From IMG/VR virus record IMGVR_UViG_3300044611_000887, positions 1-29,897 of that record: a stretch of DNA of 29,897 nucleotides. One strand, written 5' to 3'. Numbering within the stretch: position 1 is the first letter of the stretch; every line of letters begins with the position of its first letter. The notes beneath the pieces are model-generated. The model saw only the letters and a program-made list of their open reading frames with translations, did no database searches and was not told where the DNA came from. The position numbers and the translations under genes are program-made. This DNA comes from a virus. Below are positions 6,018 through 27,147 of this stretch, piece by piece.

Positions 6018-6048
6018 TTGATAAATATCTTTTTTATTGTTATTTTTA
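6018..6048 (+). promoter_or_regulatory. Possible Bacteroidota-type promoter for the helicase gene
   Basis: TTG at 6018-6020 and TATTTTTA at 6041-6048 are separated by 20 bases, one mismatch from the Bacteroidota consensus TTG-N20-TAnnTTTG. It overlaps the divergent gp14 promoter box. The region is very AT-rich, so a chance match is possible. Confidence 0.3.
6020..6028 (-). promoter_or_regulatory. Late-promoter-like box upstream of the gp14-like gene
   Basis: The minus strand reads ATATTTATC followed by AATAAAAACC, nearly the same as the box before the gp13-like gene (ATATTTATAAATAAAAAC). It lies in the divergent space between gp14-like and the helicase gene. Function is inferred. Confidence 0.5.
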
Positions 6049-6062
6049 ATAAAAAGAGAATT

Positions 6063-7826
6063 TTGGATATTAATCAATCATTGATAGAACATAAAGCGTT
6101 AGAATTATTAGACTCATACTCGGGGGCCAATAATCATATATTGTATCTAAAAACCAAAAAAGAGAATAATAAAAAGTTTTACCCAACAAGAACTCAATCA
6201 GATTACATTATAAATTATTTTGACACAGTTCCTAAGGTTGCTCGTAAGTGGGTTGATCTTGATACTTATTTTGCGAAGAAGTTTGCTGAGGAAAGATATT
6301 TTATGGAAACTCCTGAAAAAATTTACATTGAGAAATTATTAGTTGAGAAAGAAAAATCGTATCATATTTGGGGTAAGTTCTTTGAAAATGATCCTTTAAC
6401 AGAATTTTGGGTTCCTAAATCATCATTAATAAAGACTCACAATGTTGAGGTAGTTGAGGTAGATTATTCTAAATACAGTCATAGACCCCCACTACAACAT
6501 CAAAAAGAAGCAATAGAAAAATTGGCGGGATCAAGAAGATTTATTCTTGCTGATGATATGGGGTTGGGTAAAACAACTTGTACAATCATTGCTGCGTTAG
6601 AGACTGGTGCGAAAAAAATATTAATTATATGTCCCGCATCATTAAAGATTAACTGGCAACGTGAAATTGAAAATTATTCAGATAGACCTGTTTATATCTC
6701 GGAAGGTAAGAAATTTTCAACTGAATCTGATTTTGTTATTGTTAATTATGATATCCTAAAAAATTTTCACAATACAACGGATAAAAATAAGTCTTTATTA
6801 GATCAATCAAATTTTGACCTTGTTATTTTAGATGAAGCTCACATGATCTCAAATCCTCAAGCACAAAGAACAAAAATCATAAATCATTTTGTTAAAAACA
6901 TTAAAAGGGTTTGGTTATTAACGGGAACTCCAATGACTTCTAGACCAATGAACTATTATAACCTATTAAATATTATTGAATCTCCTGTTGCTCAAAATTG
7001 GATGGCTTACGCTATTCGTTATTGTCAAGGATATCAATTTATGGCAGGTAGAAGAAAAGTTTGGAATGTAACGGGAGCATCTAATTTGGAGGAATTAAGA
7101 GATAGAACTTCAAAACAAATTCTTCGTAGGTTAAAAGAAGATGTGTTGGATCTTCCTGATAAAATTATTTCTCCTGTATATCTTCGTTTGAAATCAAAAG
7201 AATATGAAGAACTGATGGGGGAATATTATAATTGGTTTGATAATAAAAAAGATGAATCGTCTTCTCTTACTGTTCAATTTTCTAAATTAATGAAAGTTAG
7301 AAAAGTTATTTCAAACGAAAAAACAAAACAAACAATCGAGTTTGCCGAAAATATTATTGAACAAGGTAAAAAGGTTATTATCTTCACAAACTTTACTGAC
7401 ACATTACAAACGATTTATCAACATTTTGGTAAACAAGCGGTTTATTTGGATGGTAGTTGTTCTAAACCTCATCGTCAACATGCTGTTGATGAATTTCAAG
7501 ATAACGAAAAGATTAGAGTATTTGTTGGTAACTTAAAAGCTGCAGGTGTTGGTTTAACTTTGACCGCCGCTGAGGTTGTTATTATGAATGACTTATCTTT
7601 TGTTCCTGCAGAACATGCTCAAGCAGAAGATCGAGCATATCGTTATGGTCAAAAATCTAATGTACTTGTGTATTATCCATTATATGAAAACACAATTGAA
7701 GGAGCAATATATGATATCCTAAATCGTAAAAAAAAAATTATCAGAACTGTAATGGGGGATGAAAATCCTGAGAATAGTGGAGACGTTGTTGAAGAAATTT
7801 TAGACATTATAAATAAAAAAAGATAA
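6063..7826 (+). CDS. SNF2-family DNA helicase/translocase
   Basis: This superfamily 2 ATPase of the SNF2 type probably remodels branched DNA or replication/recombination intermediates. Numbered from this start, Walker A is ADDMGLGKTT near residues 163-172, followed by ICPASLKINWQREI (motif Ia), LDEAHMISNP (motif II, DEAH), LLTGTP (motif III), IIFTNFTDTL (IV), NLKAAGVGLTLTAA (V) and QAEDRAYRYGQ (VI). All SNF2 hallmarks are intact. The N-terminal ~140 residues are a separate accessory region. There is no ATG until residue 81 of this model, which would remove part of that region. The TTG at 6063 has an AAAGAGAA sequence just upstream and I prefer it. An in-frame TTG at 6018 would overlap the divergent promoter and encode an unlikely IFFIVIF leader. 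This is the only clear replication or repair gene in the plus-strand group. Confidence 0.93.
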   Translation: MDINQSLIEHKALELLDSYSGANNHILYLKTKKENNKKFYPTRTQSDYIINYFDTVPKVARKWVDLDTYFAKKFAEERYFMETPEKIYIEKLLVEKEKSYHIWGKFFENDPLTEFWVPKSSLIKTHNVEVVEVDYSKYSHRPPLQHQKEAIEKLAGSRRFILADDMGLGKTTCTIIAALETGAKKILIICPASLKINWQREIENYSDRPVYISEGKKFSTESDFVIVNYDILKNFHNTTDKNKSLLDQSNFDLVILDEAHMISNPQAQRTKIINHFVKNIKRVWLLTGTPMTSRPMNYYNLLNIIESPVAQNWMAYAIRYCQGYQFMAGRRKVWNVTGASNLEELRDRTSKQILRRLKEDVLDLPDKIISPVYLRLKSKEYEELMGEYYNWFDNKKDESSSLTVQFSKLMKVRKVISNEKTKQTIEFAENIIEQGKKVIIFTNFTDTLQTIYQHFGKQAVYLDGSCSKPHRQHAVDEFQDNEKIRVFVGNLKAAGVGLTLTAAEVVIMNDLSFVPAEHAQAEDRAYRYGQKSNVLVYYPLYENTIEGAIYDILNRKKKIIRTVMGDENPENSGDVVEEILDIINKKR

Positions 7827-7842
7827 TATTATTGTTGTTGTT

Positions 7843-7851
7843 ATATTTATA
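7843..7851 (+). promoter_or_regulatory. Late-promoter-like ATATTTATA box, first tagged gene
   Basis: ATATTTATA followed by TAAAAATAAATATATT lies 16 bases before the ATG at 7868. The same box and leader recur before the next gene. Function is inferred. Confidence 0.5.
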
Positions 7852-7867
7852 TAAAAATAAATATATT

Positions 7868-8188
7868 ATGAAAAAAACAATAAGATTAACGGAATCTGAT
7901 TTAGCTCGTATTGTTAGACGAGTAATAAGAGAAGAAAATTCAAAGATTGGTGGTGTTTTATCGTGTGTTGCAACAGCATCACAATTAAAGTTAACTGACC
8001 TTGAAAAAATTAGTTCTTGTAAAACATTAAATACAGAATCAGGACAAACAATGACAAATCTTAAAAGTTGTCTTGCAGGGGCTAAAAGTATAATAGACGA
8101 AAAAACTAAAAACATGGACTTTTTTGATAAAGCTAGATATTATACAAATCTTACAACTGAAACAGCAAAGTGTATTTATAATAAATAA
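7868..8188 (+). CDS. Four-cysteine protein with N-terminal MKKTIRLTE tag (copy 1)
   Basis: This is a 106-residue protein of no family I recognise. I start it at the second in-frame ATG because the box and leader lie directly before it and the next gene starts in exactly the same way. Residues 1-22 (MKKTIRLTESDLARIVRRVI, then RE) are nearly the same as in the downstream gene. They form a basic amphipathic helix ending in I-R-E, which fits the (L/I)xE cleavage site of T4-type prohead proteases. The remaining domain has four cysteines spaced 17, 16 and 33 residues apart. This layout recurs in the next two genes. An internal head protein delivered by a targeting tag is a possible role, but that is inference. 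Confidence 0.82.
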   Translation: MKKTIRLTESDLARIVRRVIREENSKIGGVLSCVATASQLKLTDLEKISSCKTLNTESGQTMTNLKSCLAGAKSIIDEKTKNMDFFDKARYYTNLTTETAKCIYNK

Positions 8189-8209
8189 AAATTTTTTACA
8201 ATTGTCGTT

Positions 8210-8218
8210 ATATTTATA
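8210..8218 (+). promoter_or_regulatory. Late-promoter-like ATATTTATA box, second tagged gene
   Basis: ATATTTATA followed by AAAAAACAAATATATT lies 16 bases before the ATG at 8235, the same spacing as for the gene upstream. It is part of a duplicated leader. Function is inferred. Confidence 0.5.
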
Positions 8219-8234
8219 AAAAAACAAATATATT

Positions 8235-8588
8235 ATGAAAAAAACAATAAGATTAACCGAAGCTGATTTATCTAAATTAATTAGAAGAGTTATTAAGGAA
8301 ATTGACGGTGATATTCCCCAAGAAATTATGAGTTGTGCAACAGAAGTATTAACATTAAGTGATATGGCTAATCTTCCAACTTGTTTGGAATTAGGTATGG
8401 AGGTAATTACTAATGGAAAAATACCAACAGATCTCATGAAAGGGTTTAAATGTGCGTCTGAATTAGTAAGATTAAATAAAAAACCTGAAGACGCTGTGAA
8501 ATTTTTTACTTGTGTTGCTAATAAAATAAGTAACCCAGTTATGAACGCAAGTCTTAAGGAAAATAAAAGAAGAATTAATGTCAAATAG
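8235..8588 (+). CDS. Four-cysteine protein with N-terminal MKKTIRLTE tag (copy 2)
   Basis: This 117-residue paralogue of the gene at 7868 has the tag MKKTIRLTEADLSKLIRRVI followed by KE, so the I-x-E motif falls at the same residues, 20-22. The body has four cysteines spaced 15, 22 and 19 apart. The motif order is cysteine, an LTLSDMANLPTC segment, a helix ending in FKC, then FFTC. The C-terminus is basic (KENKRRINVK). A 32-base stretch covering the leader and tag is identical to that of the previous gene (7859-7890 and 8226-8257), evidence of duplication. Its end overlaps the start of the next gene by 11 bases, so they are coupled. Function is unknown. Confidence 0.82.
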   Translation: MKKTIRLTEADLSKLIRRVIKEIDGDIPQEIMSCATEVLTLSDMANLPTCLELGMEVITNGKIPTDLMKGFKCASELVRLNKKPEDAVKFFTCVANKISNPVMNASLKENKRRINVK

Positions 8589-9126
8589 TAGAAGTCAAAC
8601 TAAAATTAGAAAAACTCAACAAGTTAATTTACTTGTTGAACAAAGATATTTAAAACAAAAAGGTTTATTATTTGAAAATATTGAGGAATTTCAAGAATGT
8701 TTTGATTCATTTGGTTTAACTAATGAAAATATACCTGAAAGTTGTAAATCAGTTACAAATAGGGATGAATTTATAGAATGTAAAAATGAAATAAATTTAG
8801 CAATACAGGGAATGGGAAGTAAGGTATCTGAGTTTGACAAATTATTTAATTGTTTACAGGGAAAAGCATCAAGTTTAGGGTTTTTATCATCAGAAGATAA
8901 TAATAATTCTTTTACTGATGGGCTTAAAGAATGTTTTAACACTTTATCTGAATTTGATAAAGAGTATGTACCTGAAAGTTGTCAATTAATTAGTAATAAA
9001 GAAGAATTTAATACATGTATAGATGATATTTATGAAGAAATGGAACCAAACATGGATCCAGAAAAAGTTGATTCGTTAATTGAATGTTTAAATGGTGAAG
9101 CAACTATATTAGGTTATTTAGATTAA
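8578..9126 (+). CDS. Two-repeat four-cysteine protein (third member of the family)
   Basis: This 182-residue acidic protein has no recognised family. After a ~33-residue basic N-terminal region it contains two direct repeats of about 65 residues. Repeat 1 (about residues 37-102) has cysteines spaced 14, 11 and 23 apart; repeat 2 (about 117-182) has 15, 11 and 22. Both share the pattern (Q/K)ECF, a VPESC or IPESC segment, (R/K)(D/E)EF with a nearby Cys, a helix, then a Cys four residues before G(K/E)A and a final LG(F/Y)L. The spacing and PxxC segment link it to the two upstream proteins. It lacks the MKKTIRLTE tag but has LVE at residues 19-21. A strong terminator follows. Paired cysteines could hold disulphides or a metal; neither can be decided here. 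Confidence 0.82.
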   Translation: MSNSRSQTKIRKTQQVNLLVEQRYLKQKGLLFENIEEFQECFDSFGLTNENIPESCKSVTNRDEFIECKNEINLAIQGMGSKVSEFDKLFNCLQGKASSLGFLSSEDNNNSFTDGLKECFNTLSEFDKEYVPESCQLISNKEEFNTCIDDIYEEMEPNMDPEKVDSLIECLNGEATILGYLD

Positions 9127-9153: not shown

Positions 9154-9182
9154 AAACCCACCACACAGGTGGGTTTTTTATT
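9154..9182 (+). terminator. Rho-independent terminator after the four-cysteine genes
   Basis: AAACCCACC, a five-base loop ACACA and GGTGGGTTT followed by more T residues form a nine-pair stem with a T tract. It closes the 7868-9126 transcription unit just before the next box and gene. Confidence 0.9.
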
Positions 9183-9189
9183 TTATATG

Positions 9190-9202
9190 ATATTTATAAA
9201 TA
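9190..9202 (+). promoter_or_regulatory. Late-promoter-like box abutting the metallopeptidase-SOD start
   Basis: ATATTTATAAATA contains an exact TATAAATA at 9195-9202 that directly touches the ATG at 9203. If it is a -10 element, transcription would start inside the annotated gene. Either the true start is further in (ATG at residue 12), or the -10 element is the upstream half of the box and the message is leaderless or nearly so. Confidence 0.45.
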
Positions 9203-10297
9203 ATGAAAGCAACAATTAAACACATTAAATGTGATATGTCCAAAGAAGATAAAACTTTAATGGAAGATTTTATAAAATATTTACAAAAAAAATACCCAAT
9301 TAAAAACAATATTACAATTATGTTTTTAGGGGAAAGAAATGGTGAAATGTCAACTGGAAGTAGAACAGAAAATTCAGAACTTAAAATTTTAACTAAAGGT
9401 CGATTAAATCGTGATGTTTGTAGGACATTGGCTCATGAATGGGTACACGAATGGCAACGAACAACTAAAGGTATGAAAAGAGGTCAAGATATTGGTGGTC
9501 AAAATGAAGATGAAGCTAATTCTGAAGCCGGATCGGTTATTAAAAAATTTGAACGTGACTTCCCTAAATATGAAAAATTTATGTATGAAGGTTTAGTTGG
9601 TATTGGAAAAAAAATAAATTTAATAAATGAACAAATTATATTATCTGAAAAAGAAAATATACGTGAAAATTTTATATTAGAGATGAAAAAAATTGGTATT
9701 GATAAACTACCTTATTCATATTCATCAATAAATAAATTTGTTGACCCTGAAACAATGAACATTCATTATAATAAACATTATAAAGGGTATGTTAAAAAAT
9801 TAAATGACGCTTTATCAAAAAAAGATTATGGTGATGTTGAGTTAGAAGATATTGTTAAATCTATTGGAAAATATGATACGGTAATTAGAAATAATGCCGG
9901 AGGAGCATTTAACCATGCTTTGTTTTGGAAAATGTTATCACCAAAAAAACAAAAACCAAGTGGTGAAATATTTGACGAGATCACAAAACAATATGGTAAT
10001 ATAAAAAAAATGAAAGATGAATTTAATCAAACCGCCAAAGATAGATTTGGATCTGGATGGGTTTGGTTAATTTTAACAAAAAAAAATACTTTAAAAATAA
10101 TGTCAACACCCAACCAAGACAATCCAATGATGAGTGTTGTTAAAGACGGTGGTTATCCTTTATTAGGTCTTGATGTTTGGGAACACGCATATTATTTAAG
10201 ATATAGAAATAAAAGAGATGAATACATTAGAAATTTTTGGAATTATGTAAATTGGGAATTTGTTAATGAGTTATATTTGTTGAGAACTAAAAAATAA
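9203..10297 (+). CDS. Fusion of an HExxH metallopeptidase-like domain and a Mn-type superoxide dismutase
   Basis: This is a 364-residue two-domain protein. Residues ~1-130 resemble a compact zinc peptidase: LAHEWVHEWQR gives HExxH at 78-82, and an acidic NEDEANSE segment at 101-108 could supply the third ligand. Residues ~168-364 are a complete Fe/Mn superoxide dismutase. Metal ligands are H188 (in MNIHYNKHY), H238 (NNAGGAFNHALFW), D324 and H328 (LDVWEHAYYL), and the gateway Tyr is Y196. GG at 233-234 and the NQD motif with Q305 are the manganese-type choices, unlike the Ala-Gln pair of iron enzymes. A linker around 131-167 joins the halves. The gene sits between a terminator and the gp13-like neck gene and has a late-type box. 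It may act on superoxide made by the host or by the infection, or ride in the virion. No signal peptide is seen. Confidence 0.9.
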   Translation: MKATIKHIKCDMSKEDKTLMEDFIKYLQKKYPIKNNITIMFLGERNGEMSTGSRTENSELKILTKGRLNRDVCRTLAHEWVHEWQRTTKGMKRGQDIGGQNEDEANSEAGSVIKKFERDFPKYEKFMYEGLVGIGKKINLINEQIILSEKENIRENFILEMKKIGIDKLPYSYSSINKFVDPETMNIHYNKHYKGYVKKLNDALSKKDYGDVELEDIVKSIGKYDTVIRNNAGGAFNHALFWKMLSPKKQKPSGEIFDEITKQYGNIKKMKDEFNQTAKDRFGSGWVWLILTKKNTLKIMSTPNQDNPMMSVVKDGGYPLLGLDVWEHAYYLRYRNKRDEYIRNFWNYVNWEFVNELYLLRTKK

Positions 10298-10317: not shown

Positions 10318-11442
10318 ATGTCAATAATTTCAGAACCAGAAAGAAGTAAATTATATACAAGAATTCGTCACCTATTAGGTGCTCCTCTTCGTAGTGTTGA
10401 GTTAGAAGACGAACAAATGGATACATTGTTAGAATTTTCTATTGATGATTATTCACAATATATACAAGATTGGTTAATAGAATCACAATGGTCTAATCTT
10501 TGGGGTTTAAATGTTGAAACACAATCATTAGCAAAAGCATTTATCTCTAAAAGTTTAGATTATGAAACAAGATACACATATGCCTATTCTAAAATTGTAG
10601 GATTACAAGCTGGTGGTGACTATGTTTTAAAGAAAGATTACATTCAATTAGTTGGTAACCAACAAATATATGAAATACCTGCGTGTAGAGAACTTAACGA
10701 ATTACTGTGGTTTTCTCCCGCAGAATTAAATAATACGTTAATAGATCCGTGGACTTTTGGTGGAATTGCCGGTGGAGGATTAGGAGGACCGGGTGGATTT
10801 ACTCAAATGGGTAACATGGCGGGTAGTTACTTTATGATGCCAGCGTTTGATATGTTATTAAGAATGCAAGAAATTAATATACAAAGAAGAATAATCCAAG
10901 GTGATTTAACATATAGGGTTACAGCGTTACCTGAAGGTAAAAAAGCAATTCACTTAATGAATACACCTGGAGGTAAATTTGACTTCGGTAATGGTACATT
11001 AATGAAAGGTAGAGTTTGGTATTGGTATTATGATGCTTGTGAAGAGGATAAAGACAATTGTTTAAAAAATAATCCTGATATAATTCAAATGCCATCAGAT
11101 GTACCATTCCAACAAATGTCTTGGGTTGATCTAAATAATCCGGCACAGGTTTGGGTTCGTAGATGGTTTACGGCATATTGTAAAGAAACATTAGCAAGAG
11201 TTCGAGGTAAATTTAGTGGTAACATTAAAACCCCCGATTCTGAATTAACAATGGATTACACTTCTTTAGCAACTGAGGCAAAAGATGAAAAAACAAAACT
11301 AATAGATGAACTTACAGGACCTGAAGGTAGGTTGACAAGATTAAAACCTGAAAAAGTAATGGAAAGAGAAGCGTTAATTGCAGAAAACTTAAATAAATCA
11401 CTTAAGTTTAGAGCAATGCCAAGACAAATATATGTTATATAA
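10318..11442 (+). CDS. Neck protein, T4 gp13-like
   Basis: The protein has 374 residues; T4 gp13 has 309. The C-terminal half is the recognisable part: VWVRRWFTAYCKETLARVRG, a GNIKTPDSELTMDYTSLATE segment, a helical LIDELTGPEGRL region, then MEREALIAENL. In T4-type gp13 the order is a tryptophan-containing helix with KE.L...R.K(F/Y), a P.....LD...L segment and a terminal amphipathic helix. The N-terminal half contains a glycine-rich loop (GGIAGGGLGGPGGF) near residues 146-161, which I do not know from T4. The gene is in the opposite orientation to the gp14, gp15 and sheath genes, so the neck gene cluster has been split. It runs directly into the next gene without a gap. Confidence 0.75.
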   Translation: MSIISEPERSKLYTRIRHLLGAPLRSVELEDEQMDTLLEFSIDDYSQYIQDWLIESQWSNLWGLNVETQSLAKAFISKSLDYETRYTYAYSKIVGLQAGGDYVLKKDYIQLVGNQQIYEIPACRELNELLWFSPAELNNTLIDPWTFGGIAGGGLGGPGGFTQMGNMAGSYFMMPAFDMLLRMQEINIQRRIIQGDLTYRVTALPEGKKAIHLMNTPGGKFDFGNGTLMKGRVWYWYYDACEEDKDNCLKNNPDIIQMPSDVPFQQMSWVDLNNPAQVWVRRWFTAYCKETLARVRGKFSGNIKTPDSELTMDYTSLATEAKDEKTKLIDELTGPEGRLTRLKPEKVMEREALIAENLNKSLKFRAMPRQIYVI

Positions 11443-14708: not shown

Positions 14709-14717
14709 ATTATTTTT
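14690..14717. terminator. AT-only hairpin at the end of the fibre operon, weak terminator
   Basis: AAAAATAATT and AATTATTTTT flank an eight-base loop and form a perfect 10-pair stem. It begins at the stop codon of the 1645-residue gene and is followed by more T residues on the minus strand. It also overlaps the -33 region of the polymerase promoter. With no GC pairs it may be an inefficient terminator, so the fibre transcript may read into the polymerase gene. Confidence 0.45.
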
Positions 14718-17700
14718 AACAAGTTGGACAAGGACCCAATAAAATTGATGTCACACCAGCGGGAAGTGAAGGTGCTGTAGATGAACAAATAGTTGCTACT
14801 CCACTTGGACCGATAATCAGAGGTGAAATCTCGGTAATACAACACGGTGTAAATGTTATAGAAACTTCTTTTGTCGCATTAGTATTATTAATCCTATAGT
14901 AAAAACAACTCGGAGTTGGGGTTGGGGTTTTTGTTAAGGTTGGGGTTGGGGTTTTTGTTAAGGTTGGGGTTACCGTTTTAGTTGGGGTTACCGTTGGAGT
15001 TGTTGTTTTAGTCGGTGTCAATGTTGGAGTTTTAGTTACCGTTGGGGTTGGAGTCTTAGTTTTTGTTGGGGTTGGTGTTGGGGTTACACAAAGGTAGGTT
15101 GATATACAAGTATCACAGTTTACGGATGTGGTATTATTCCATATTAAACTTATTGCTCCTATTTGTAATGTAATTACCTCATAACATTGTAAATCGGTAC
15201 CAATAATCACATTTCCAGGTGTAAATGTTGATGGTAAATTAACGTATCTAAATATTGACTTAGTACAACAATCAAGAACTAAATATGTTACAAATACTGG
15301 TGTTGGAGTAGGTGTTGGTGTTTTTGTTGGAGTTACAGTTTTTGTTGGGGTAGGTGTTTTTGTTTGTGTGGGAGTTATAGTTATTGTTGGTGTTGGTGTT
15401 GGTGTTGTGGTTGGTGGGGGTGGATTTGTTGGAGTTGGAGTTGGCGTTGGTGGTGGGTTAGTTCCTGTTGGTGTATTTGTTGGTGTATTTGTTGGAGTTG
15501 GTGTATTTGTTGGAGTTTTTGTTGGTGTTACAGTATTTGTTGGTGTTGGTGTTGGTGTTGTCGGATCAATAACATAACCAATCCCACAAATTTCTAAAGT
15601 TTGTGAAGCTCGTATTTTATTTCCTATAACAGTTAACGATGTAAATGGTAATGAGTTACTAAAGGTAAATACTCCCGCACCTAAACCTGTTGTTGTTATA
15701 AAAGTAAAACAATCACTACCACCAGTTCCACCAAGAATTACATTTCCAGATATAGTTGAACAACAGTGATCACATGATGTGATAAGTGGATTTCCAATAT
15801 TAGTGGTAAAAGTCATTGCAGTACTAAGAGCAGTATATGGGGGATTTCCAGATGTTCTAATATAGGAAATTCTTAAAGTGACAGTGGTAACAGGAATACT
15901 AAATGTCATTGTATATGAATATGTTACTATTGCGGGAGGTGGAATTGGCCACTGAGTACTTGGTTGAGCACCTAATCCAAATACCGGACTAGATATGTTA
16001 AAAGAAGGGGAACAAGTATAAACACCTGCATATGCTGGCCAATTACCAAATCCTGTTGAAGTTATTACCATACCACTAGAATATGTTAACGATGCCGTAG
16101 TAACCGATCCTCCGGGATTATTTAAAAATTCATAAATAAATGGTAAGTTTGCAAATTCTTCACAGTCAGGACAATTTGGTGTTGGTGTCGGTGTTGGTGT
16201 CGGAGGAGGATCTGTTGGGGTAACAGTTGGAGTAACCGTTGGTGTTGGTGTTGGAGTTGGTGTCGATCCACTAAGATATAACAATGAATCGTTACATTCT
16301 GGAATGCTTGAGGCGTTATATACTCTAAGCCCACAATTTTGAACTAAAGTAAATGGGTATGGAGGAGATTGGTTAATGTTCCATAATGGACCAATAGGGT
16401 TTTGACCGTCTCCGGTAAAATATATCTGACTATTATCAGTAAATAAACCATAAGTGTTAAATATAGTAAAAGGATTAAAAGGAACATAAACATCCAATGA
16501 TAAAGTAGTATAGTCATACTGATTTATCCCAAAAAAACCACCAAAACCCATACCTACATTAACTAATAGTTTACTTGGAGATGTTGTTGTAAACATTAAA
16601 TCCTCAAAAACTTGAACATTTGGAGGTAATGTAATTAAAGTTAATAATGATGCTGTTGTTGTCGTAATATCAAATTCTACTATTTCTGTAATCGTTGAAC
16701 TAACAGTAATACTACCAATTAATGTGGAATTACTTTTTGCCGTCAATCCGCTACCCATAACAATAGGAAGTGGAATTGTTATAATTCTATTAAATGTTGC
16801 ACTAAAAGGACATGGTTGGTAGTCGTACTCATAAATAACCCATTGGGTCCCTCCAGGTATAGAAACAACAGTTTGTAAAAAGATTTTATTAGATGTGTGT
16901 GCAATTCCATAAATTGAAAGTGATGGATATGACCCACTAAAAAATGGTGTTAAAAAAATTGGGATATTAGTTGTAATATCATAAGAATAAACATCCAAAC
17001 TAACATTACTCGCATCTAATGCAACAAATAAAACATTACATCTTTCTAAACAAATAATATTTTCTGGTACGGAATCACAAAATGTTAATACTGAACCAGA
17101 TCCACCACCTGGTCCTGATATTGTTAAAGATGTAAAAGGAAGTGAGTTGTTTATGTTGAATAGACCTGAACCTACTACCCCGCCATCACAATCACTATTT
17201 ATATTAGAGGCGGTAATTACATTTCCTGAAATTGAAACACAACATCCTGAACATAAATTAATATTGGGAGTATTACTCCCTGTGTTAGTTGTTAAAGTAA
17301 AAGATTCTCCAACATTATATCCAACTAAAAAAATTTTAAAATCATTAACTGGATAACTAAAATTTAATGTATATGTGAATGGACCACTCCCACCAATGTA
17401 AATCGAATTTTGGATCGCACAAAAACCACAATAAATTTCCGAACAAGATGGAGATGGATAAATTGCAACAGATCCTGTACCAGTTGCGGAAATTGTAAGA
17501 CCATTTGAATACATAATACTATTGCCTATTGCAGGTAAAAGAGTTTCTTGATCACAATCACAAGGTAATGGTGGAGGTGTTGGTGTTGGTGTTGGTGGAG
17601 GATCTGTTGGGGTAACAGTTGGTGTTACAGTTGGTGTTGGTGTAACATATGGAGGTATAAACTCCAAATCAATACATTCAGGACTTTGCCCTGAATCAAA

Positions 17701-19653
17701 AGACCTACTCTGCAAAAAGTTTCCAAGTAATGAAGTTGTATACGGAGATACATTTGATATTGACCAAAGTTCATTACCAGGAAATCCTCCTATATAAAAT
17801 AAATTATTCCATTGGAAAAATGATTGTATAGTAGTTGTTATTGAAATTAGAATGTCGAGTTGTACCTGCCAAGAACCTGCAATATATTGAAATTGAGTAA
17901 CGTATTTTTGTAATGTTGATGTGTCAAGTCCTATTGTAATCATTTTACCGTTGTTGTTCATAACAACTTCAGTAATTTGTCTATTAGCTGATAAAGTACT
18001 TAATTGAAATAATGAAGTTTTAGACCAAACAGTTCCGCTAATGTCCACTAAAACAATGTCAAAACCTGTACTACTAAATCCCATGGATACTAATAAGTTA
18101 GGGTTGACTATATTTGTTATTGGATCCCTATATACACATAATGCACCTGCCAACCAACCTAACCCTGGAATAGCACTTGGAGATGCAATGTCCCTAGACC
18201 AAACTGCATTCCAAGGACTTAACGTAATATCCCATTCTCTTATTCCTTGAGAAGCGTCTTGACATATCCATAATTTTGTTGATGTATTTGTCATAGATTG
18301 ACCTAATACATTTAAAGAATTGGGTAAATTTAGTAATGTTGTTATATTTGATGTTGGATTATAAGAATATAAACCGACAGAAGCCGGAGAAGATGTATCT
18401 AACCTTGTCATTATTAAAGGTAAACAGTTCGCATCAATTGGTTCTGGAGTATTTGTTGGTGTTGGTGATGGTAATAATCCTGATGTTGGTGTAACAGTTG
18501 GTGTTGGTGTTGGTGATACGGGTGGTTGAACCGAATCTGAACATATGTCAACAATGGTACCACCATAACCACCTGGTCCTGTTATGGTTAAAGTGGTAAA
18601 TGTAGATATATTTGAAATTGTGAACGTACCGCCACCATCATTAGTTCCTGGTAAAATCGGACAAAAAATTGATGTAACAACATTTCCAATAATTGTAGCA
18701 CAACAATAATCACAAGAAGATAAAACAGGGTTACCACTATTTGTGGTAAACGTAAATGATTCAGATCCGAAACCTGGTGGTGAACTATAATTAATTAATC
18801 TTATTACTAAATTATTAACCGGTGAACTAAAATTTAAAATATAAGTAAATGGCGATGATAAAAATGATGCGGACCCTAAAAATGCGGTATTAGTTGCTGA
18901 TCCGAGTGGTATCATGCACCAAGCAAAACTACCCCCTGGATCTGTTAGAATATCACCAAAACCTGAGGCGGTTACTGTAACACCATTAATTGTTGTTGAA
19001 GATCCTAAACCAGGTAAAGCACTAACCGTTGCACATATCGGACAAACGGGTGTTGGTGTTGGTAATAACCCTGAAGTTTGTGTTGGTGTTTGTGTTGGAG
19101 GTAGTCCCGGTGTTACTGTCATAGTTGGTGTTACTGTAGGGGTTGGTGTTGGACAAGGTTCTTCTAATAAACATACGGAACAATCACCCAATTGTTCTAT
19201 TAAGGTTGCCAAATCATCAGTATATGATATTAGAGTTGATGCTGGCGTGGATGGAGAAACGTTAGTTATACACCCATTAAATAATAATGAAGATAAATAA
19301 TATGAATTAGTGGTTATAGGAAAAAAAGTACTTGGGATATTATCTATTCGTATATATATACTAGGGTCACAACAAGATTGAAATACTGCGACTCCCGGTA
19401 ATGGACATTCACCAATTGTTACATCAAAAGACGCATCTGAACAACTATCAGTTGGATCATAAATAAACCATCCTGTATCAGGAAAAGAGTCACTATCTGT
19501 TGATCTTGGTTGTCCACAGAAGATACCCTCCCAACCGATCATTTCCCAATAACCAAGATTATTCCATCTAATTGTTAATGGAGTTGTGTTATCATACCCA
19601 ACCCAAGAAGGTTTTGAGTTATAAAAACCAATAAAATTAAAATCATAATTCAT
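14716..19653 (-). CDS. Giant mucin-like, multi-module surface or fibre protein
   Basis: This 1645-residue protein has no known family for the whole. It is a chain of cysteine-containing beta domains joined by Thr/Pro linkers. A ~165-residue module occurs three times (about 205-372, 698-860, 1161-1357). Its signature is a strand pair ending in NFS.PVN, then FT.TTN.G, C..CC, GNV(I/V) and FT.LT..GPGG. Two propeller-like segments (about 405-665 and 868-1128) lie between them, giving an A-B-A-B-A order. A third module with CC..SI...(N).PSTF recurs at about 88-162 and 1454-1522. Thr/Pro linkers lie at 168-202, 379-403, 671-696, 1130-1159, 1365-1452 and 1524-1581. A host-binding fibre or capsid decoration is likely from context and layout. 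No signal peptide or enzyme motif is seen. The linkers are candidates for O-glycosylation by the upstream transferases. Confidence 0.88.
14911..15084 (-). repeat. Thr/Pro-Lys coding repeat tract near the C-terminus
   Basis: Encodes residues 1524-1581 as variants of TPT-(V/L)TKTPT. The DNA is a degenerate short tandem repeat of GGGTT/TTGGGGTT type on the plus strand. Confidence 0.85.
15298..15561 (-). repeat. Longest Thr/Pro coding repeat tract of the giant fibre gene
   Basis: Encodes residues 1365-1452, made of [15 protein letters not shown] and TKTPTPTKT variants. Plus-strand DNA is dominated by GTTGGTGTT and GTTGGAGTT words, which makes it prone to slippage and recombination. Confidence 0.85.
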
Positions 19654-19683: not shown

Positions 19684-21612
19684 TTAACTACTAATAAATG
19701 TAAGTAAATTACTTGTTATCGTACCACCACCAGCTGCAGGTGTTATAAATGCCGTAATAGATATTCTGTATGTATGATTTGGAGGACAAGTTCCACCATA
19801 ACCATTTGGATTAACCGCATTTGGGAACCAATCTGTTTGTTGTATAGACGCACCTGCTTGCCATCCTGAGAGTCCTGATGTCCATAAATTAATTGATGTT
19901 TGAGTTGGTGGGATATTTATTACTTTCCAATGAACAAAATATCCACTAGGACTTGATCCAGGTGCGTTAATATCTTCCATTAATAAACTATAACTGATAA
20001 CATCATTTGTGTTTAAGTTATTTATAAACCAATCTAATCCAACACTATAATTTTGACCTGGAGGACAGATTGGATGTCTTACCGACTGAGCTAATGTTTG
20101 ACCATTTAAGAACTGAGGACTTGTTAAAATAAGACTTGGTGGTGCGCTACATACGGATTGGGTCATTGTGGTACCTACTTGGTAATAATATTCATTTAAA
20201 CAGGTTGTTGCTGTGATTGGGTTTAATCCCGGTAAAGTAATTAAATTTAGGTTTGGATTTACTAATGGAGCTGTCCCACCTGTCCAAGCTTTAATTCCTA
20301 ACTCATTTGCAACGTCATCAATTCTACAAGCATAACCTAACCAATTGTTGTATGAATTTGGTAAACCACATCCTATTGGTGGAGGAGTTATGGCGTAATT
20401 AGTGTTAAAAACATTGTTGGCTCCAGTAGCAGTGGGATAAGATGGGCAGCTATTACCGGCAAATACTAAACCTATTACTTTAAAGTTTGGTGATGGTTGG
20501 GTACCAAAATTGGCAATTAACATTGATCCTGAATCACCACCGGCACATGGCCATAAACAGTGTGGTTGAGCAGGTATACCGCTTGGTTTAAAAAATGCTA
20601 TTAATCTTGGGTTAAAATCTGCAGCTGTACTATATTGTTGACCGCCAGCAGCTAAATGCCAACTATAAGGTCCAACAGCAGTTGCAACATTTATCTGACT
20701 AATCCTTAATTCACATCCCGGTGTTCCTAAACCCTTTGGTCCGGTTGATCTACCAGTACTATATAATTGTGGGTTTGTTACCAATAAGTTATTAATTTCA
20801 GCGGTTGTTGCAAAAGGTAATGGATTAGGCATTAAAGCTTCAAACCCCGAAAATTTAAAAGATTGATTAAAATCAATTTCATTACAATTAATACTAACTA
20901 ATGCGGCATCTACATTATTTTTTGGTAATCCTAATGGAGATGCTATCCATCCGCTACTTGGTGGTAAAGTTTGATAGGGTGAAATTGGTACATATCTAAC
21001 AACTTGACCAAATTTACTACCTGTTTGAAACCCAAATTCCCCAGGTTGGCAAACGTCATTATCTGGATTTATTTCGTTAGTTATTGGGAAATTATTTCCC
21101 AATACAGGATTTAAATTTTGATATTGAGCCTTTATAGAGTTTCCAATTACAACGTGATTATTTGTTAAACCAACTAAAGCGTTCGTGTGTATGTCTTGCA
21201 CAATCATACCTAAAGTACCAACAGAATTACCTTTTCTTACCGAAGTTATAGATATACCACCTCTCAATGTTGCAAATGCAGATCTATTTGTTGGTGGTGT
21301 TAATACAAAAGGCTCACAAAGCGGAGGTGAGTTAGTGATAGGTGTTGTTCTACTACATTGTAAAGTATAAATTTCACCAACTTGTATTACATCAGTATTA
21401 AGTGTTTTATTTTCACTTATTTTTATTTCTGATGGTAAAATTTCATTATCGGATAAATTACTTAACGGTTTTTTTTCTTTCACCGAAAAAACAATACAAA
21501 CTTCACCAGTATAAATACCGTTAGTTTGTTTAAACCCATAACCAACACCAACATCAGATGGTGTATTATCACTCCATTCTTTTAATTTTTTATTTATTTC
21601 TTCTGTTATCAT
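19684..21612 (-). CDS. Trypsin-like serine protease fused to a PEBP (YbhB-like) domain
   Basis: The protein is 642 residues from the ATG at 21610-21612. That start gives the same spacing to the DVGVGYG motif as in the paralogous gene upstream, whereas the in-frame start six codons earlier does not. Residues ~115-445 form a chymotrypsin-fold protease with H153 (LTNNHVV), D235 (NNVDAALVS) and S361 (CAGGDSGSM); all three catalytic residues are present. Residues ~497-642 match the phosphatidylethanolamine-binding protein family: LLMEDINAPG (the D-x-D-A-P region), FVHWKVINIPP, and YGGTCPPNHTYRISITAF (the GPxPPxxxHxY region). Unlike its neighbours it has no long Thr/Pro tract. Cysteines are frequent and there is no signal peptide. 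It is probably a virion surface protein that can cleave proteins or bind a ligand, by context. Confidence 0.88.
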   Translation of the reverse strand: MITEEINKKLKEWSDNTPSDVGVGYGFKQTNGIYTGEVCIVFSVKEKKPLSNLSDNEILPSEIKISENKTLNTDVIQVGEIYTLQCSRTTPITNSPPLCEPFVLTPPTNRSAFATLRGGISITSVRKGNSVGTLGMIVQDIHTNALVGLTNNHVVIGNSIKAQYQNLNPVLGNNFPITNEINPDNDVCQPGEFGFQTGSKFGQVVRYVPISPYQTLPPSSGWIASPLGLPKNNVDAALVSINCNEIDFNQSFKFSGFEALMPNPLPFATTAEINNLLVTNPQLYSTGRSTGPKGLGTPGCELRISQINVATAVGPYSWHLAAGGQQYSTAADFNPRLIAFFKPSGIPAQPHCLWPCAGGDSGSMLIANFGTQPSPNFKVIGLVFAGNSCPSYPTATGANNVFNTNYAITPPPIGCGLPNSYNNWLGYACRIDDVANELGIKAWTGGTAPLVNPNLNLITLPGLNPITATTCLNEYYYQVGTTMTQSVCSAPPSLILTSPQFLNGQTLAQSVRHPICPPGQNYSVGLDWFINNLNTNDVISYSLLMEDINAPGSSPSGYFVHWKVINIPPTQTSINLWTSGLSGWQAGASIQQTDWFPNAVNPNGYGGTCPPNHTYRISITAFITPAAGGGTITSNLLTFISS

Positions 21613-21623
21613 TTTTTTTATTA

Positions 21624-23462
21624 TTAGCAATTATATGATTCAAATGTCACAAATGACGTAAATGGACCAACAGCTGCGTTAACAGGTGTTGGTGTAGGTG
21701 TTTTAGTTGGTGTAGGTGTTGGAGTTTTAGTTACCGTTGGAGTAGGAGTTTTAGTTTTAGTTACTGTTGGTGTCGGTGTTTTGGTTGGTGTTGTTGATGG
21801 TGATAATCCTGGTGTTGTTGTTATTGTTGGTGTTGGTGTTGTTGTTGGAGTTTCGGTTGGTCTCGGAGTTTCGCTTGGTGTTACGGTTGGTGTTGCGGTT
21901 GGTGATAATCCCGGTGTTGGTGTGACAGTTGGTGTTGGTGTTGGAATTGGAATACAATCACATGATGAATCTTCAGTATAAACAGAACCCGATCCAGAAA
22001 TAACACTTGCACTTATTGCACATATGGTACCAGTTTGGAAGGTGGGAACGGGTAATAAAATTGTTACACCTTCACAACTAACATAAGAAATTGTTGAACC
22101 AGTACCAAACGGACCACCATAATAAGCCCAAGTTTTACAACAAGGTGTGGTTGGGGTAGGTGTGGGTGTAAGTGTACCAGTAGGTGTTGGACTAATATCA
22201 CATGGTACTGTTAAATTATAAGCGCCTACTTGCCAATATGTGTCACCCCCCGAAACTTGTGTTTTAACACTATTAAACCCTGGCACTGTAATATAGGATA
22301 TTGTGGTTGAATCAACGTATGGTTTAGTTGTTCCATCCCAAGATTGAATACCAAGTTCACTTGCTACGTGGTCAATTCTACAAGCAAACCCATAATATTC
22401 AGAACCAGCAAACACTAGTCCAACAATTTTTGATGTACCACTAAAATCTGCAACCAATGCAGATCCAGAATCACCAGCAAAAATAGGGTAGTTACAAACG
22501 GTTGCTAAGTTAGGGTCGTTTTCGGGTCTTACAAACATAATTATATCCGTGAATGGAATTGTGGTTGATGTTCCTTGGATATTATATCCACTGACACCAC
22601 CAGCAAAACCCAACGTGAAAGTTCTTAGTGGACAAGGTATTCCTTGTTTAACTCCTGTTGTTCTACCACTACTAAACAACATTGGATTTGTTGTTAATAA
22701 ATTATTAATTTCTGTCGTTGTTGCAAAAACGTAAGGAGAATTATAAGTCAAACCAAATTGTTTGAAAGATTCCGCAATATCGATAACTGGATTACATTCA
22801 ACTGAAATTAGTGCTCCATCAACTTTGTTAACTCCACCCGACACGGATATCGGAACATACCTAACAACTTGACCAATCATAGCTGCAGGAGCAGGTGAAG
22901 ATGATTCCCCATTTTGAAATGCAGAATCAGGTTGTACCGCCCCACCTGAAATAATATCATATTCATTTTGTATAAGACCTGATGGGTTTCTTTGACTTGT
23001 GTATGATGCGTCCCTAATTACAACGTGATTATTTGTTACACCAACCAAAGCTTGAGTTGCAACATCAACCGCAATAAATCCTAAAGTACCTACAAAACCA
23101 AGTTTAGTTTGAGAGGTAATTGATATACCACCTTTAATTGGTCTATGTTGTAGACGATTTGTTGGTGGTGTACCTGGATTTGTCCAAGTGTAACAACTAG
23201 GATCACAAGCAAAAGTTTTAATTATACCCACCTCAATAACATCGGTTTTTAGAACTCTATCACTTAAAGTAAATTCAACATCAGGTAATAATTCATTTTC
23301 AGGAATTAAATGTGACGGTATTTTTTTTGGTACAAAAAATATGATTGACTCTTCATTAGTCATTTCACCATTTTTTATTTTTGTACCATAACCAACGCCC
23401 ACATCATTAGGTGTGGCGTTAAAAAGTTCTTCGATAATTTCTTTTATTTCGTCAGTTAACAT
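21624..23462 (-). CDS. Trypsin-like serine protease with mucin-like Thr/Pro tail
   Basis: This 612-residue paralogue of the following gene has the same N-terminal domain ([10 protein letters not shown] at 17-26) and a protease domain with H146 (VTNNHVV), D215 (NKVDGALIS) and S332 (IFAGDSGSA), so the triad is intact. After the protease comes a short Thr/Pro linker (424-440), then a small cysteine domain starting [16 protein letters not shown] (441-503). The same domain occurs in the next upstream protein. A Thr/Pro-Lys tract (505-594) follows, and a short hydrophobic C-terminus ends in YNC. The start overlaps the previous stop by seven bases. The protease may process other virion proteins or cut host surface proteins; neither can be told from sequence. 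Confidence 0.88.
21681..21950 (-). repeat. Thr/Pro coding repeat tract of the protease gene
   Basis: Encodes residues 505-594 with TPTPTVT, TPGLSP and TKTPTPT units. Open frames in the antisense direction (for example 21781-21981) are by-products of this repeat. Confidence 0.85.
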
Positions 23463-24718
23463 GATTTAGTATTATATTTTATATAAATAGTGTTATTAGT
23501 TATAATTCCACAAGTTGGTGTTGGTGTTGGTGTCGGTGATAATCCTGGTGTTACGGTAGGATTTGGTGTAGGTGTTTTTGTTGGTGTAGGTGTCGGTGAT
23601 AATCCTGGTGTTACGGTAGGAGTAGGAGTAAGTGTTTTTGTTGGTGTTGGTGTTGGTGATAATCCTGGTGTTGTTGTTGTTGTTGGTGTTTTTGTTTTTG
23701 TTGGAGTTGGAGTTGGTGATAATCCTGGTGTTGTTGTTGGTGTTGTTGTTGGAGTTGTTGTTGGAGTTGTTGTTGGAGTTTGTGTTTGTGTAGGAGTCGG
23801 GGTTGGGGTTAGTTGTGCGGAACCACAAGTACAAGTACTTTCAAGATAAGTTTGACCATCTCCCGATAATTTTATAACGGATAACGCACATATTGTAGAA
23901 GCGTATCCCGTTGAAGCACTAAAGGTTGTTGTGTTTCCTGAACAATCTAACCATTGGAATGTAGATCCAGAAACAGGTCCCCCAAAATAATACCAAGTAT
24001 TACAACAAGGAATTGGACTTCCTGTTGGTGTAATTGTTGGTGTTGGAGTTACTGTTGGTGATTGAATAAACACACTAAAACAAAACTCATCTATTGGTGA
24101 CGGAAGAGGTATTGGAGTTTTTGTTGGTGTTGGTGTTGGTGATAATCCCGGTGTAGGTGTAGGTGTAGGTGATAATCCCGGTGTTGGTGTAGGTGTAGGT
24201 GATAATCCCGGTGTTGGTGTGACAGTTGGTGTTGGTGTTGATGTTGGAGTGTCTTGAGGACAACAACATTCTGTAGTTGTTGTAGTTGTTGTTGGACACA
24301 CATTATTACAACAAGGAAACTCTATTAAATAACAACTTTCATATGGTAAATCTTCCGCAATGAAACTTTCTTGTACATTAATAAATAATTGTTCTCGTAT
24401 TGGTAATATTAAAACTCCTTGAGAATTTCTTAATAAGAATTGAGCCTCATATCTTGCAGTTTTATTTGTGTCTTGTGGTTTGAATTGATAATAAATGTAA
24501 TATTCAGGTTCCGCATTAGGATCCAAAAGTACTTTCTCAACAAATCCAGCCGAACTTGTTGAAATTTTAGGAATCCCGGTTTCAACATTAGTCATTGAAA
24601 AGAAGATAGAGGACTCTTCAATCATATCCATGAAAGAATTATAATCACTTCTACCGTCTTTTACAACCTGTAATTTTAATATAGGGAGAGTTGCATTCTT
24701 TTTAATGAAAAATTCCAT
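23456..24718 (-). CDS. Mucin-like fibre protein with baseplate-type N-terminal domain
   Basis: The protein has 420 residues. Residues 1-135 are a beta domain: [15 protein letters not shown], a strand set around [17 protein letters not shown], then [20 protein letters not shown] and LFINVQESF. That order resembles the Ig-like N-terminal domain of siphophage upper-baseplate (BppU) proteins, which anchor to the particle. A Thr/Cys knot ([14 protein letters not shown], 141-154) leads to a Thr/Pro tract with three GLSPTPTPT units (157-205). Next comes the [15 protein letters not shown] cysteine domain shared with the protease downstream (238-298). A second tract of about 100 residues (303-402) is made of ~20-residue [13 protein letters not shown] repeats. 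It is likely a tail appendage in which the N-terminal domain docks to the virion and the repeats project. The anchor assignment is inference. Confidence 0.85.
23513..23812 (-). repeat. Tandem ~20-residue [11 protein letters not shown] repeat array
   Basis: About five units in residues 303-402, with GGTGATAATCCTGGTGTT recurring on the plus strand at each GLSP. Unit borders are regular enough to allow unequal recombination between copies. Confidence 0.85.
24104..24250 (-). repeat. Short [10 protein letters not shown] repeat array
   Basis: Three ten-residue units in residues 157-205 of the same gene. The plus-strand word GATAATCCCGGTG recurs at 30-base spacing. Confidence 0.85.
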
Positions 24719-24756: not shown

Positions 24757-27147
24757 TTAACTTTCTTTTCTTAAAGAACCATCATAATGATGAAATCTAT
24801 GGTGCTCCGTTGGAGTTAATAATAATAATCCAGGATTAATTTTTCCTTTTACTGTTTCTTGATAAGAATAACTCATAAGTACTTGTTCATGAGGGTGAGC
24901 CCATTTTGTTTCTAAATAACAATTATAATTACCTTTTTTTGTTAAAACAATTGGCCAATTACACAAAAATATTTCACCCGTAATATATGGTAATCCTTTG
25001 TGAATATGTATTTCATCAAATTTTGTTTTAGGTGAATTAGAATCTAATCCTTGAGTAGGTAATTTAGGATTTTTTGGCCAATGATTTTTTCTAAAATCTT
25101 GTGGTACGTTATACCATGAAAATTGAATATCATTGGATCCGTAGAATTCACTAAAATTAAGTTTAAGAAAATCAAAATTTTCTTTTTGTATTATCTCTAA
25201 TGATTTCTGATATAAATTATCAACATAACGAGAAAATCCGTTTCGACATACCTCACCTTTTTTAGGGTAAAATGACATGTCATCTTCAAACCAATAATAA
25301 AAATCTAAATCAGTTTCATCAAAATGTTCTGCAACGAATACTCTACCACCAACAATCCCAATGTTATCTTTTTTAATGTGTTCAAAACCATATTGTTCAC
25401 ATAGTTCAATATATCTTGGTGTTGTTGATAAATCAGTTGAATTATCTAATAAGAATTTCTTTGGTTTCTCAATAAAATCTTTATCGTAATCCAACATTGA
25501 TTGGATAAGTACTTCTAATTGTTTTGGTGAGTTAAATGTGATAACATAAAGACCAACCTTTGATGTGTCCAAATTATTTACAACAACATCTTTTGATACT
25601 TCCGATTTAACCTCAACAGTCGTATTTTTTAAATCCTCAAAGAATCTACCCATTAACCCATTACCTTCTATTTCTGAATAAGTAATTAAGTTTGGATACT
25701 TGTATGTCATAATTGTAAATAATGACTCTTCGGTTCCCATTAACCCTTGTGATAATGTGTCATTCATTAACCCATAATAGATACTATTAATTTCTGTTAT
25801 TGCGTCTTTTTTTCCGCCAAAGAAACCAGCTCGAGCAACCATATTAACAGGTTTACCAACTAAATCACACAACTCTTGATATTTGAATCCGTGTATTTCA
25901 CTATTGGTTTCATATGGAAAACAAACAAAGTGAAAATTATTAACTAATTGGGGTAATTTATCTAAAACTTTATCATGTGTAAAATATCCTGGATGTATTG
26001 TGTTAGTTAATCCGGCGTCAACCCAAAACATATATTCTGAATTAAACTTATCTAAAATTTTTGCGTCGTGTAAAAGATAAATTTTAGACATAACTAAAGG
26101 ATTATACATCTCTAGTTTAGCTTGTGTCGAATCTGTTAACCAACCAACTTGATTATACCAATCAGGATTGGTTCTAATTTTTTGAATTTTATCGTAGAAT
26201 TCATTATTCTTAAACCATGATAAATCCCTACGAACAAATTGAGTATTTTCATCACGTCTATTATCTAATACAAATTTTTCTAATTCTTCGTCCCCAAAAA
26301 TTATCATATTTACGTCAACTTGTAATAATTGTTGAAACTTATCTAAATAATGTTGGTATGATCGAGACCACCCTTCTTGGAGTTCTCCTCTACCTATATC
26401 CCATAGTCCCGTAACTATAGTAATAACATTGTTTTGAGTATTAACAGTTTTTTTAATAATATTATTTTTTGGTTTACTTGATGAAAAAATTTCATCATAA
26501 AAATATTTTGGTAACCCAACAATATCTTGACCCGATATTTCATATATAAAATCATTAGTTTTGAATATTTCAATTATCTCACTTTGTTCTTGTTCAGATA
26601 AATTAATCCATTCTAATCTTATAACCTTTGGTGTGTATTTTTTAAAATCAATTTGTTTAAAAATTTTAAAATCATGTCCTTCAGCATCAACTTTAAGAAT
26701 ATCAAAGTTATTTAGTTTATGTTTATCCATTAAGGTTTCAAATGTGATACATGGAACCTTAACCAACTTACCATATTTTTCAACTGTAAGTCTATCGCCT
26801 TCACTTCCCAAACCATTTTTAGGTGGATAAACCGCACTCATACCATAAAAACAACTGTGAATTAAACCACTATCAATGACTTCTTTGTCAATTGTCATCA
26901 TTTCAATTTCACCATCATAATCAGATATTGCACTATTTTCAAATAATCCTACATCACCAATATTACTTTTTAATCTATCAAATAGGTAAGGTATTGGTTC
27001 AACATATAGAACATTAAAATTGTACATTTTAGTATACCCAATCATCTCGTCAAACATCACACCATCCATTGAACCAATGTTTAATGCGGTTATGGTATTA
27101 TTAGTTTTACCTAAAAAGTGTAATGACTCATCAAAAAAATTTTCCAT
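24757..27147 (-). CDS. Three-domain fusion: FkbM methyltransferase, HtrL/WlaTC-like domain, glycosyltransferase
   Basis: The protein has 796 residues. Residues ~15-215 are an FkbM-type SAM methyltransferase with ALNIGSMDG (21-29), YVEPIP (48-53) and ILKVDAEGHDF (150-160); such enzymes O-methylate sugars. Residues ~240-495 resemble the HtrL/YibB/WlaTC family found in surface polysaccharide loci: TIVTGLWDIGRG, FWVDAGL (374-380), ARAGFFGG and GTEESLFT are all present. Residues ~525-796 look like a GT-A glycosyltransferase with a YVITFNSP opening, a WFEDDM motif at 619-624 (possible DxD metal site) and a His-rich C-terminus (TEHHRFHHYDGS). It lies in the glycan block just ahead of the mucin-like genes. 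It could add and methylate sugars on them or alter host or virion glycans. Domain calls are fairly sure; the acceptor is unknown. Confidence 0.87.
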   Translation of the reverse strand: MENFFDESLHFLGKTNNTITALNIGSMDGVMFDEMIGYTKMYNFNVLYVEPIPYLFDRLKSNIGDVGLFENSAISDYDGEIEMMTIDKEVIDSGLIHSCFYGMSAVYPPKNGLGSEGDRLTVEKYGKLVKVPCITFETLMDKHKLNNFDILKVDAEGHDFKIFKQIDFKKYTPKVIRLEWINLSEQEQSEIIEIFKTNDFIYEISGQDIVGLPKYFYDEIFSSSKPKNNIIKKTVNTQNNVITIVTGLWDIGRGELQEGWSRSYQHYLDKFQQLLQVDVNMIIFGDEELEKFVLDNRRDENTQFVRRDLSWFKNNEFYDKIQKIRTNPDWYNQVGWLTDSTQAKLEMYNPLVMSKIYLLHDAKILDKFNSEYMFWVDAGLTNTIHPGYFTHDKVLDKLPQLVNNFHFVCFPYETNSEIHGFKYQELCDLVGKPVNMVARAGFFGGKKDAITEINSIYYGLMNDTLSQGLMGTEESLFTIMTYKYPNLITYSEIEGNGLMGRFFEDLKNTTVEVKSEVSKDVVVNNLDTSKVGLYVITFNSPKQLEVLIQSMLDYDKDFIEKPKKFLLDNSTDLSTTPRYIELCEQYGFEHIKKDNIGIVGGRVFVAEHFDETDLDFYYWFEDDMSFYPKKGEVCRNGFSRYVDNLYQKSLEIIQKENFDFLKLNFSEFYGSNDIQFSWYNVPQDFRKNHWPKNPKLPTQGLDSNSPKTKFDEIHIHKGLPYITGEIFLCNWPIVLTKKGNYNCYLETKWAHPHEQVLMSYSYQETVKGKINPGLLLLTPTEHHRFHHYDGSLRKES

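Follow-up and report, generated by a model that had tools for sequence, protein, structure and literature searches.

A conserved phage gene joins a metallopeptidase-like domain to a Fe/Mn-type superoxide dismutase and is a candidate for a packaged polyprotein

Here, we analyzed a window of 29,897 nucleotides from a virus (IMG/VR record IMGVR_UViG_3300044611_000887), in which one gene (9203..10297, + strand) encodes a metallopeptidase-like domain, a linker and a superoxide dismutase (SOD) in a chain of 364 amino acids. The fusion is genuine, and at least 150 viral loci in public data share it over the full length. As the best reading of the data, which we hold to be fairly probable, the chain would be made late and packaged into the head, where the prohead protease would cut it before its delivery together with the DNA, and the window gene would represent a modular phage polyprotein in its two-module form, with a putatively Mn-type SOD as the core.

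The fusion gene and its two domains

The gene runs as a single open frame from ATG to stop, confirming that one frame joins both halves, as a sequence-only reading of this DNA had claimed; the protein ends in RTKK without a third module. By sequence, residues 166–358 (9698..10276, + strand) form a complete SOD of the Fe/Mn type in which no ligand is missing. In the profile search proposed for this half, two Pfam domains score far above their curated cut-offs (Sod_Fe_N, PF00081: E 1.3e-20, 74.1 bits against 27; Sod_Fe_C, PF02777: E 4.6e-39, 133 bits against 20.9), and the closest solved structures are MnSODs (E ~1e-59). The residues named in the sequence-only reading were all found in place: the ligands H188, H238, D324 and H328, the gateway tyrosine Y196 and the Mn-type residues GG233–234 and Q305 are invariant in 30 non-redundant homologues of 66–87% identity, as is the dimer-bridging E327 before the last histidine (30/30, like Y196). 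The top matches also point to the Mn type, but the SOD scores below the NCBIfam equivalog cut-offs.

The N-terminal half (residues 1–129; 9203..9589, + strand), of which standalone homologues exist, is predicted by AlphaFold2 to be a compact, confident fold (pLDDT mostly 87–97). The HExxH motif claimed at residues 78–82 was verified as HEWVH (9434..9448, + strand). H78, E79 and H82 are invariant in the alignment and sit in helix 69–87 of the model, so that the structure prediction suggested for the metal sites gave a confident fold with a helical HExxH for this half. On the following helix, E102 and E104 are invariant in 30 homologues, and by analogy with gluzincin-type families E102-D-E104-A (9506..9517, + strand) may supply the third metal ligand. 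The profile search matched the domain but reached no Pfam family cut-off: the best hit was M91 (E 0.0063, 17.3 bits against 25), and the protein is therefore placed in no named peptidase family, M78 (ImmA/IrrE), M91 and SprT having been weighed and rejected. Against the PDB, the sequence search gave nothing firm and the fold match was weak (best E 0.03, TM ~0.5). A viral structure library yielded IrrE-like and SprT-like zincins of similar fold, along with a standalone phage protein of 127 aa that matches the domain nearly whole. Because the Pfam scores lie below the cut-offs and the PDB fold matches are weak, the term 'metallopeptidase-like' is warranted and 'peptidase' not yet; we use the latter only as a short label.

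Conservation and modular ancestry

The IMG/VR search gave at least 208 relatives, of which the best 80 were retained. All of these best 80 match the fusion over essentially its full length, and a stricter parse yielded 158 loci with the fusion. In a second scan, made with the N-terminal domain alone, all complete copies among the best 80 carried the SOD as well; two copies without it were truncated by contig ends. With dN/dS at ~0.06–0.14, all three parts of the chain (N-terminal domain, linker and SOD) are alike under purifying selection. A frameshift or assembly artefact joining two genes, raised in the sequence-only reading as an objection to the fusion, would fit the occurrence of the halves as separate genes in other phages. 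We give it almost no credence: an assembly join was ruled out because many metagenomes contribute to the more than 150 loci with the same fusion, at identities as low as 66%, and purifying selection spans both halves and the linker across the join. Relatives with two separate genes, the other objection named, do exist, and they point to modular evolution and not to an artefact.

Several such separate forms were found. In other phages, SOD chains without the peptidase occur at the same locus, flanked by the SNF2 helicase and gp13-like genes, and start with a segment of ~45 aa resembling the fusion linker, and a standalone SOD gene was seen with the leader MNLKIVDILRE/G (slashes mark leader ends and candidate cuts). 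Many standalone peptidase-domain genes stop exactly after '…YE', which corresponds to E129 of the fusion and is thus where the domain naturally ends when it stands alone. In G074, a relative of the window's phage, the peptidase domain stands alone and the SOD lies in a separate gene. T4-like cyanophages hold a standalone peptidase homologue as well (B23 gp332, hhalign probability 98.1), which begins M[NLF]YKQFL[RLV]E/S, comparable to T4 MKTYQEFIAE/A and gp24 MAKINELLRE/S. In a second fusion type, the HExxH domain is followed, after 'YE' in nearly all cases, by a segment that is ParB-like by eye. HExxH domains with the ParB-like motif 'YYLVAGNTRLSTAAALG' were seen in loci L358, L360–L362, L367–L370, L379 and L408.

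According to the SOD tree, the fusion may have arisen only once (support 73/97), and in the simplest history a leader-bearing SOD gene acquired the peptidase domain at its front. Recent capture of a host SOD was rejected, since Flavobacteriales SODs are mostly 41–48% identical to the phage SOD and branch apart from it in the tree, as a group with full support. One Flavobacteriales match reached 52%, in a MAG also holding a phage scaffold. A search for gp23 in the MAG behind locus L201 found none; the L201 scaffold is phage because L232, a 222 kb IMG/VR contig with an identical SOD, carries a gp21 gene. A phage scaffold from the wider group was binned with Fluviicola, which hints that the host is perhaps among the Bacteroidota. 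UniProt A0A6J5L953 (501 aa, named 'superoxide dismutase') is 68% identical over 198 aligned columns, and a relative has therefore already been deposited.

About half of the relatives have a frame that runs on past the SOD through one to three more modules, to a total of roughly 450–960 aa. Four kinds of extra C-terminal module (A–D) were distinguished, each behind a junction (for example KKLNES, INES or LKES), and in nearly all cases the junction has the form [LIV]xE-[S/T/N]. The longest chain, in one relative, is peptidase-SOD-D-D-B with INE ahead of each added module. Standalone module D has a leader ending LIKE/NISLKEK, for which the polyprotein counterpart reads LNE/SISLKEK, and one junction in L296 retains the leader-like MNSTIIITKEQAQIMNFLISE/D. 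Searches of modules A–D against Pfam, PHROG and PDB sequences gave no convincing match, and modules A or B were encoded by none of the annotated phages searched.

The module D family ('…SLKEKLLGLIKKVGFES…WLDEVYNLRG') was also seen in ~14 scattered copies in contig G001 (296 kb, L094–L108). The leader MKIIITENQYKLIKE is found on most of them, and the copy at 166712–167158 lies between the portal and gp21 genes, where T4 has its prohead-core genes. In L295–L299, L308, L047 and L069, the C-terminal modules carry D-x(n)-Q[VI]KP. They gave no profile match and, judged by their motifs (D…QVKP, D…QIKPF), are reminiscent of PD-(D/E)XK nucleases.

Linker sites, late-type box and leader-bearing neighbours

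The linker (residues 130–165; 9590..9697, + strand) is rich in (L/I)xE and varies in length among homologues. Residues 129–175 are predicted to be disordered (AlphaFold2 pLDDT <50), yet they are constrained, with a linker dN/dS of ~0.1. Three candidate cleavage sites lie here on the + strand: MYE129/G (9581..9589), whose E is invariant in the alignment; LINE143/Q (9620..9631), with letters as in the propeptide junction FLINE/A of the major capsid protein (MCP); and LSE149/K (9641..9649), picked out by alignment and motif count. The linkers of 37 non-redundant fusions contain 96 [LI]xE against 59±5.9 after shuffling (0/1000 shuffles as high), and the density of 6.5 per 100 aa is about ten times that of the two domains (0.6–0.7), figures that refer to a short motif in linkers rich in L, I and E and to non-independent homologues.

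A gp21 protease (Peptidase_S77) and a gp23-type MCP were found in four long fusion-bearing relatives, the window itself being a 29.9-kb fragment without gp21 or MCP. In four related contigs the MCP junction reads SFLINE/A or SHLINE/A, the counterpart of T4 SFLTE/A. T4 gp21 trims N-terminal pieces off gp23, gp24, the internal proteins (IPs) and Alt (PMC9958956), and giant-phage proteases related to gp21 also cleave after E (PMC5694885). By motif, the fusion has (L/I)xE sites at the putative mature boundary. The linker sites look like prohead-protease cutting sites, at which the chain may be cleaved.

Upstream of the gene, both signals described in the sequence-only reading are present. A terminator-like hairpin with a T run (AAACCCACC…GGTGGGTTTTTT; 9154..9179, + strand), similar in most relatives listed, is followed by the late-type box TATTTATAAATA (9191..9202, + strand) immediately 5' of the ATG. 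The exact TATAAATA was rejected as the conserved box, as it occurs in only 3/59 upstreams. The conserved box is TATTTAT, found within 40 nt 5' of the fusion in 51/51 distinct upstreams, where it usually starts 11–14 nt before the ATG, and in 26/26 upstreams of peptidase-only or ParB-like-fusion genes. Genome-wide, TATTTAT precedes 79/292 and 54/215 ORFs against 5.9 and 3.5 expected (13–15 times enriched), including portal, gp21, scaffold and tail genes. This box, shared with virion genes, points to a probably late expression of the fusion gene.

The neighbours of the fusion have short leaders resembling capsid-targeting peptides. In the window, an SNF2-type helicase gene (6018..7826, + strand; Pfam), which precedes the cargo locus in relatives, is followed on the same strand by three genes for possible packaged cargo: two small leader-bearing genes recognized by sequence and leader class, at 7868..8188 (MKKTIRLTESDLARIVRRVIRE/E…) and 8235..8588 (MKKTIRLTEADLSKLIRRVIKE/I…), and a gene with an LxE-rich N-terminus at 8578..9126 (…VNLLVE/QRYLKQKGLLFE/N…). 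The gp13-like neighbour reported earlier was recovered as a neck gene (10318..11442, + strand; phrog_211, E 9.2e-11), lying behind the cargo locus in relatives.

Across G001 and G002 (L094–L120), 65 ORFs have leader-like starts of several classes, e.g. MKKIIRLTESDLTRIVKRVIKE, MKIIITENQYKLIKE and MNLQESIRRILREE, possibly a large repertoire of packaged proteins. TATTTAT is commoner before these leader-bearing ORFs (44/65 against 93/473 others, p 1e-14) for leader patterns that were defined after inspecting the sequences, and in G074 the link is weak (7/15 against 41/167). One leader class has [LI]xE at the expected place in only 10/21 cases, with 3.2 expected. Four proteins of cyanophage B23, one of them the peptidase homologue, start with T4-style targeting peptides (4 observed against 0.45 expected). 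A leader peptide search in annotated phages found nothing, the 23-aa query being perhaps too short.

Further observations were made at and around these loci. Right after the gp13-like gene, L279 carries three similar tandem genes (6661–8356) with the leader MKL(I/V)(L/I)(T/S)E.QYKRLLE/QEEE. In the window, two adjoining paralogues (19684–21630 and 21624–23462, − strand) have a GDSGS motif and are trypsin-like by eye; the latter protein contains long TPTPTPT repeats, as do those of 14716–19653 and 23456–24718. A large protein (24757–27147, − strand) combines an FkbM-type methyltransferase-like region and then glycosyltransferase-like regions in one chain.

Proposed role, alternatives and known systems

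In the reading we favour, the fusion would be made late, alongside the virion genes, and its chain taken into the prohead, where a gp21-type prohead protease would cut the linker at the (L/I)xE-type sites E129, E143 and E149. The peptidase-like domain and the SOD would be released inside the head and then enter the host with the DNA. The peptidase-like domain may act on some host target, and the SOD would remove superoxide in the virion or the infected host and so protect the packaged DNA or the newly infected cell; a SOD guarding against superoxide is plausible. In this scheme we infer when the gene is expressed, that the chain is packaged, cleaved and delivered, that both domains are active as enzymes, which metal is used and what role the protein plays. 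That the fusion is made late and packaged, as the sequence-only reading had suggested, is indirectly supported by TATTTAT in all 51 upstreams, the (L/I)xE linker sites and the leader-bearing neighbours. Its other suggestion, a peptidase acting on a partner that the SOD half binds, found no support, and the linker looks built to separate the halves. The wider family of longer chains, with modules that are also encoded singly, had gone unnoticed in that reading. For the broader picture of multi-enzyme chains (peptidase-like, SOD and modules with nuclease-like motifs) being loaded, cut in the head and injected together, amid dozens of leader-tagged cargo proteins, we see even chances.

The chief gap in this mechanism is the missing leader: the fusion starts MKATIKHIKC…, without an N-terminal capsid-targeting peptide. 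The standalone peptidases of its close relatives likewise have none, leaders being present on the cyanophage peptidase and the standalone SOD, which leaves no evident route by which the peptidase half would enter the head. We found no proteomic data on virions of these phages.

Alternatively, the chain could be a late-expressed, unpackaged bifunctional enzyme, whose SOD shields the dying cell that produces the virions while the peptidase processes a phage or host protein and the linker serves as a flexible tether. We consider this possible but rather doubtful. The late-type box fits it equally well, other phages have unfused Mn/Fe SOD genes in non-virion neighbourhoods, and phage SOD is suggested by a metagenome study to buffer host reactive oxygen (PMC12542629). 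However, it leaves unaccounted for the LxE sites at the junctions, the match of these junctions to the leader ends of standalone module copies and the T4-type capsid-targeting N-terminus of the cyanophage peptidase homologue. The stable pairing of peptidase and SOD across 66–100% identity would also suit a chain that is packaged and ejected uncut and works as one, the SOD dimer holding or aiming the peptidase and the LxE motifs being incidental; E129, after all, is also just where the standalone domain ends. Such a chain seems improbable to us, as the linker is variable in length, predicted to be disordered and enriched in protease-type sites, and extra modules are gained and lost at junctions of one kind.

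Neither phage SODs nor T4 internal proteins nor maturation by a prohead protease is new in itself. A full-text literature search found no published description of a peptidase–SOD fusion or of such a polyprotein; what appears to be new, relative to the literature searched, is a chain of enzyme-like modules with putative prohead-protease-type sites between them. If the packaged and head-cut reading is true, this would be a virion-borne, protease-matured enzyme polyprotein in a tailed phage. One gene and one chain, cut in the head, would bring a fixed enzyme set into the cell as infection begins, and superoxide removal would join the functions that a phage brings along. Leader peptides and LxE junctions would also provide a handle for listing likely ejected proteins in widespread uncultured aquatic phages.

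Among known systems, the unfused SODs of the PA5oct group and Vibrio phage 2.275.O belong to the same iron/manganese family, whereas they are encoded by a separate gene in another neighbourhood, are 26–29% identical and lie distant in the tree. The virion Cu,Zn-SOD of Megavirus chilensis is a precedent for a packaged SOD, but it is an unrelated enzyme of a eukaryote virus and not a polyprotein (cited in PMC9405923). IrrE/ImmA-like and SprT-like zincin-type phage domains share the HExxH helix and a similar predicted fold, while the domain of the fusion stays below the Pfam cut-offs with a weak PDB fold match. In the ejection proteins of phiKZ/SPN3US-type phages, several head proteins are matured after E and some propeptides exceed 100 residues; the motif there is AxE or SxE, and the available part of that source describes neither a multi-enzyme polyprotein nor a SOD (PMC5694885). 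The head-internal proteins of T4 (IPI, IPII, IPIII and Alt, cut by gp21) resemble the present system in the gp21 and gp23 types of the fusion phages, the (L/I)xE motif, the late-type box and the short leaders ending in (L/I)xE on some standalone relatives of both halves. They differ in being single proteins with a short N-terminal leader, whereas the fusion is leaderless and strings together several enzyme-like modules with candidate sites between them.
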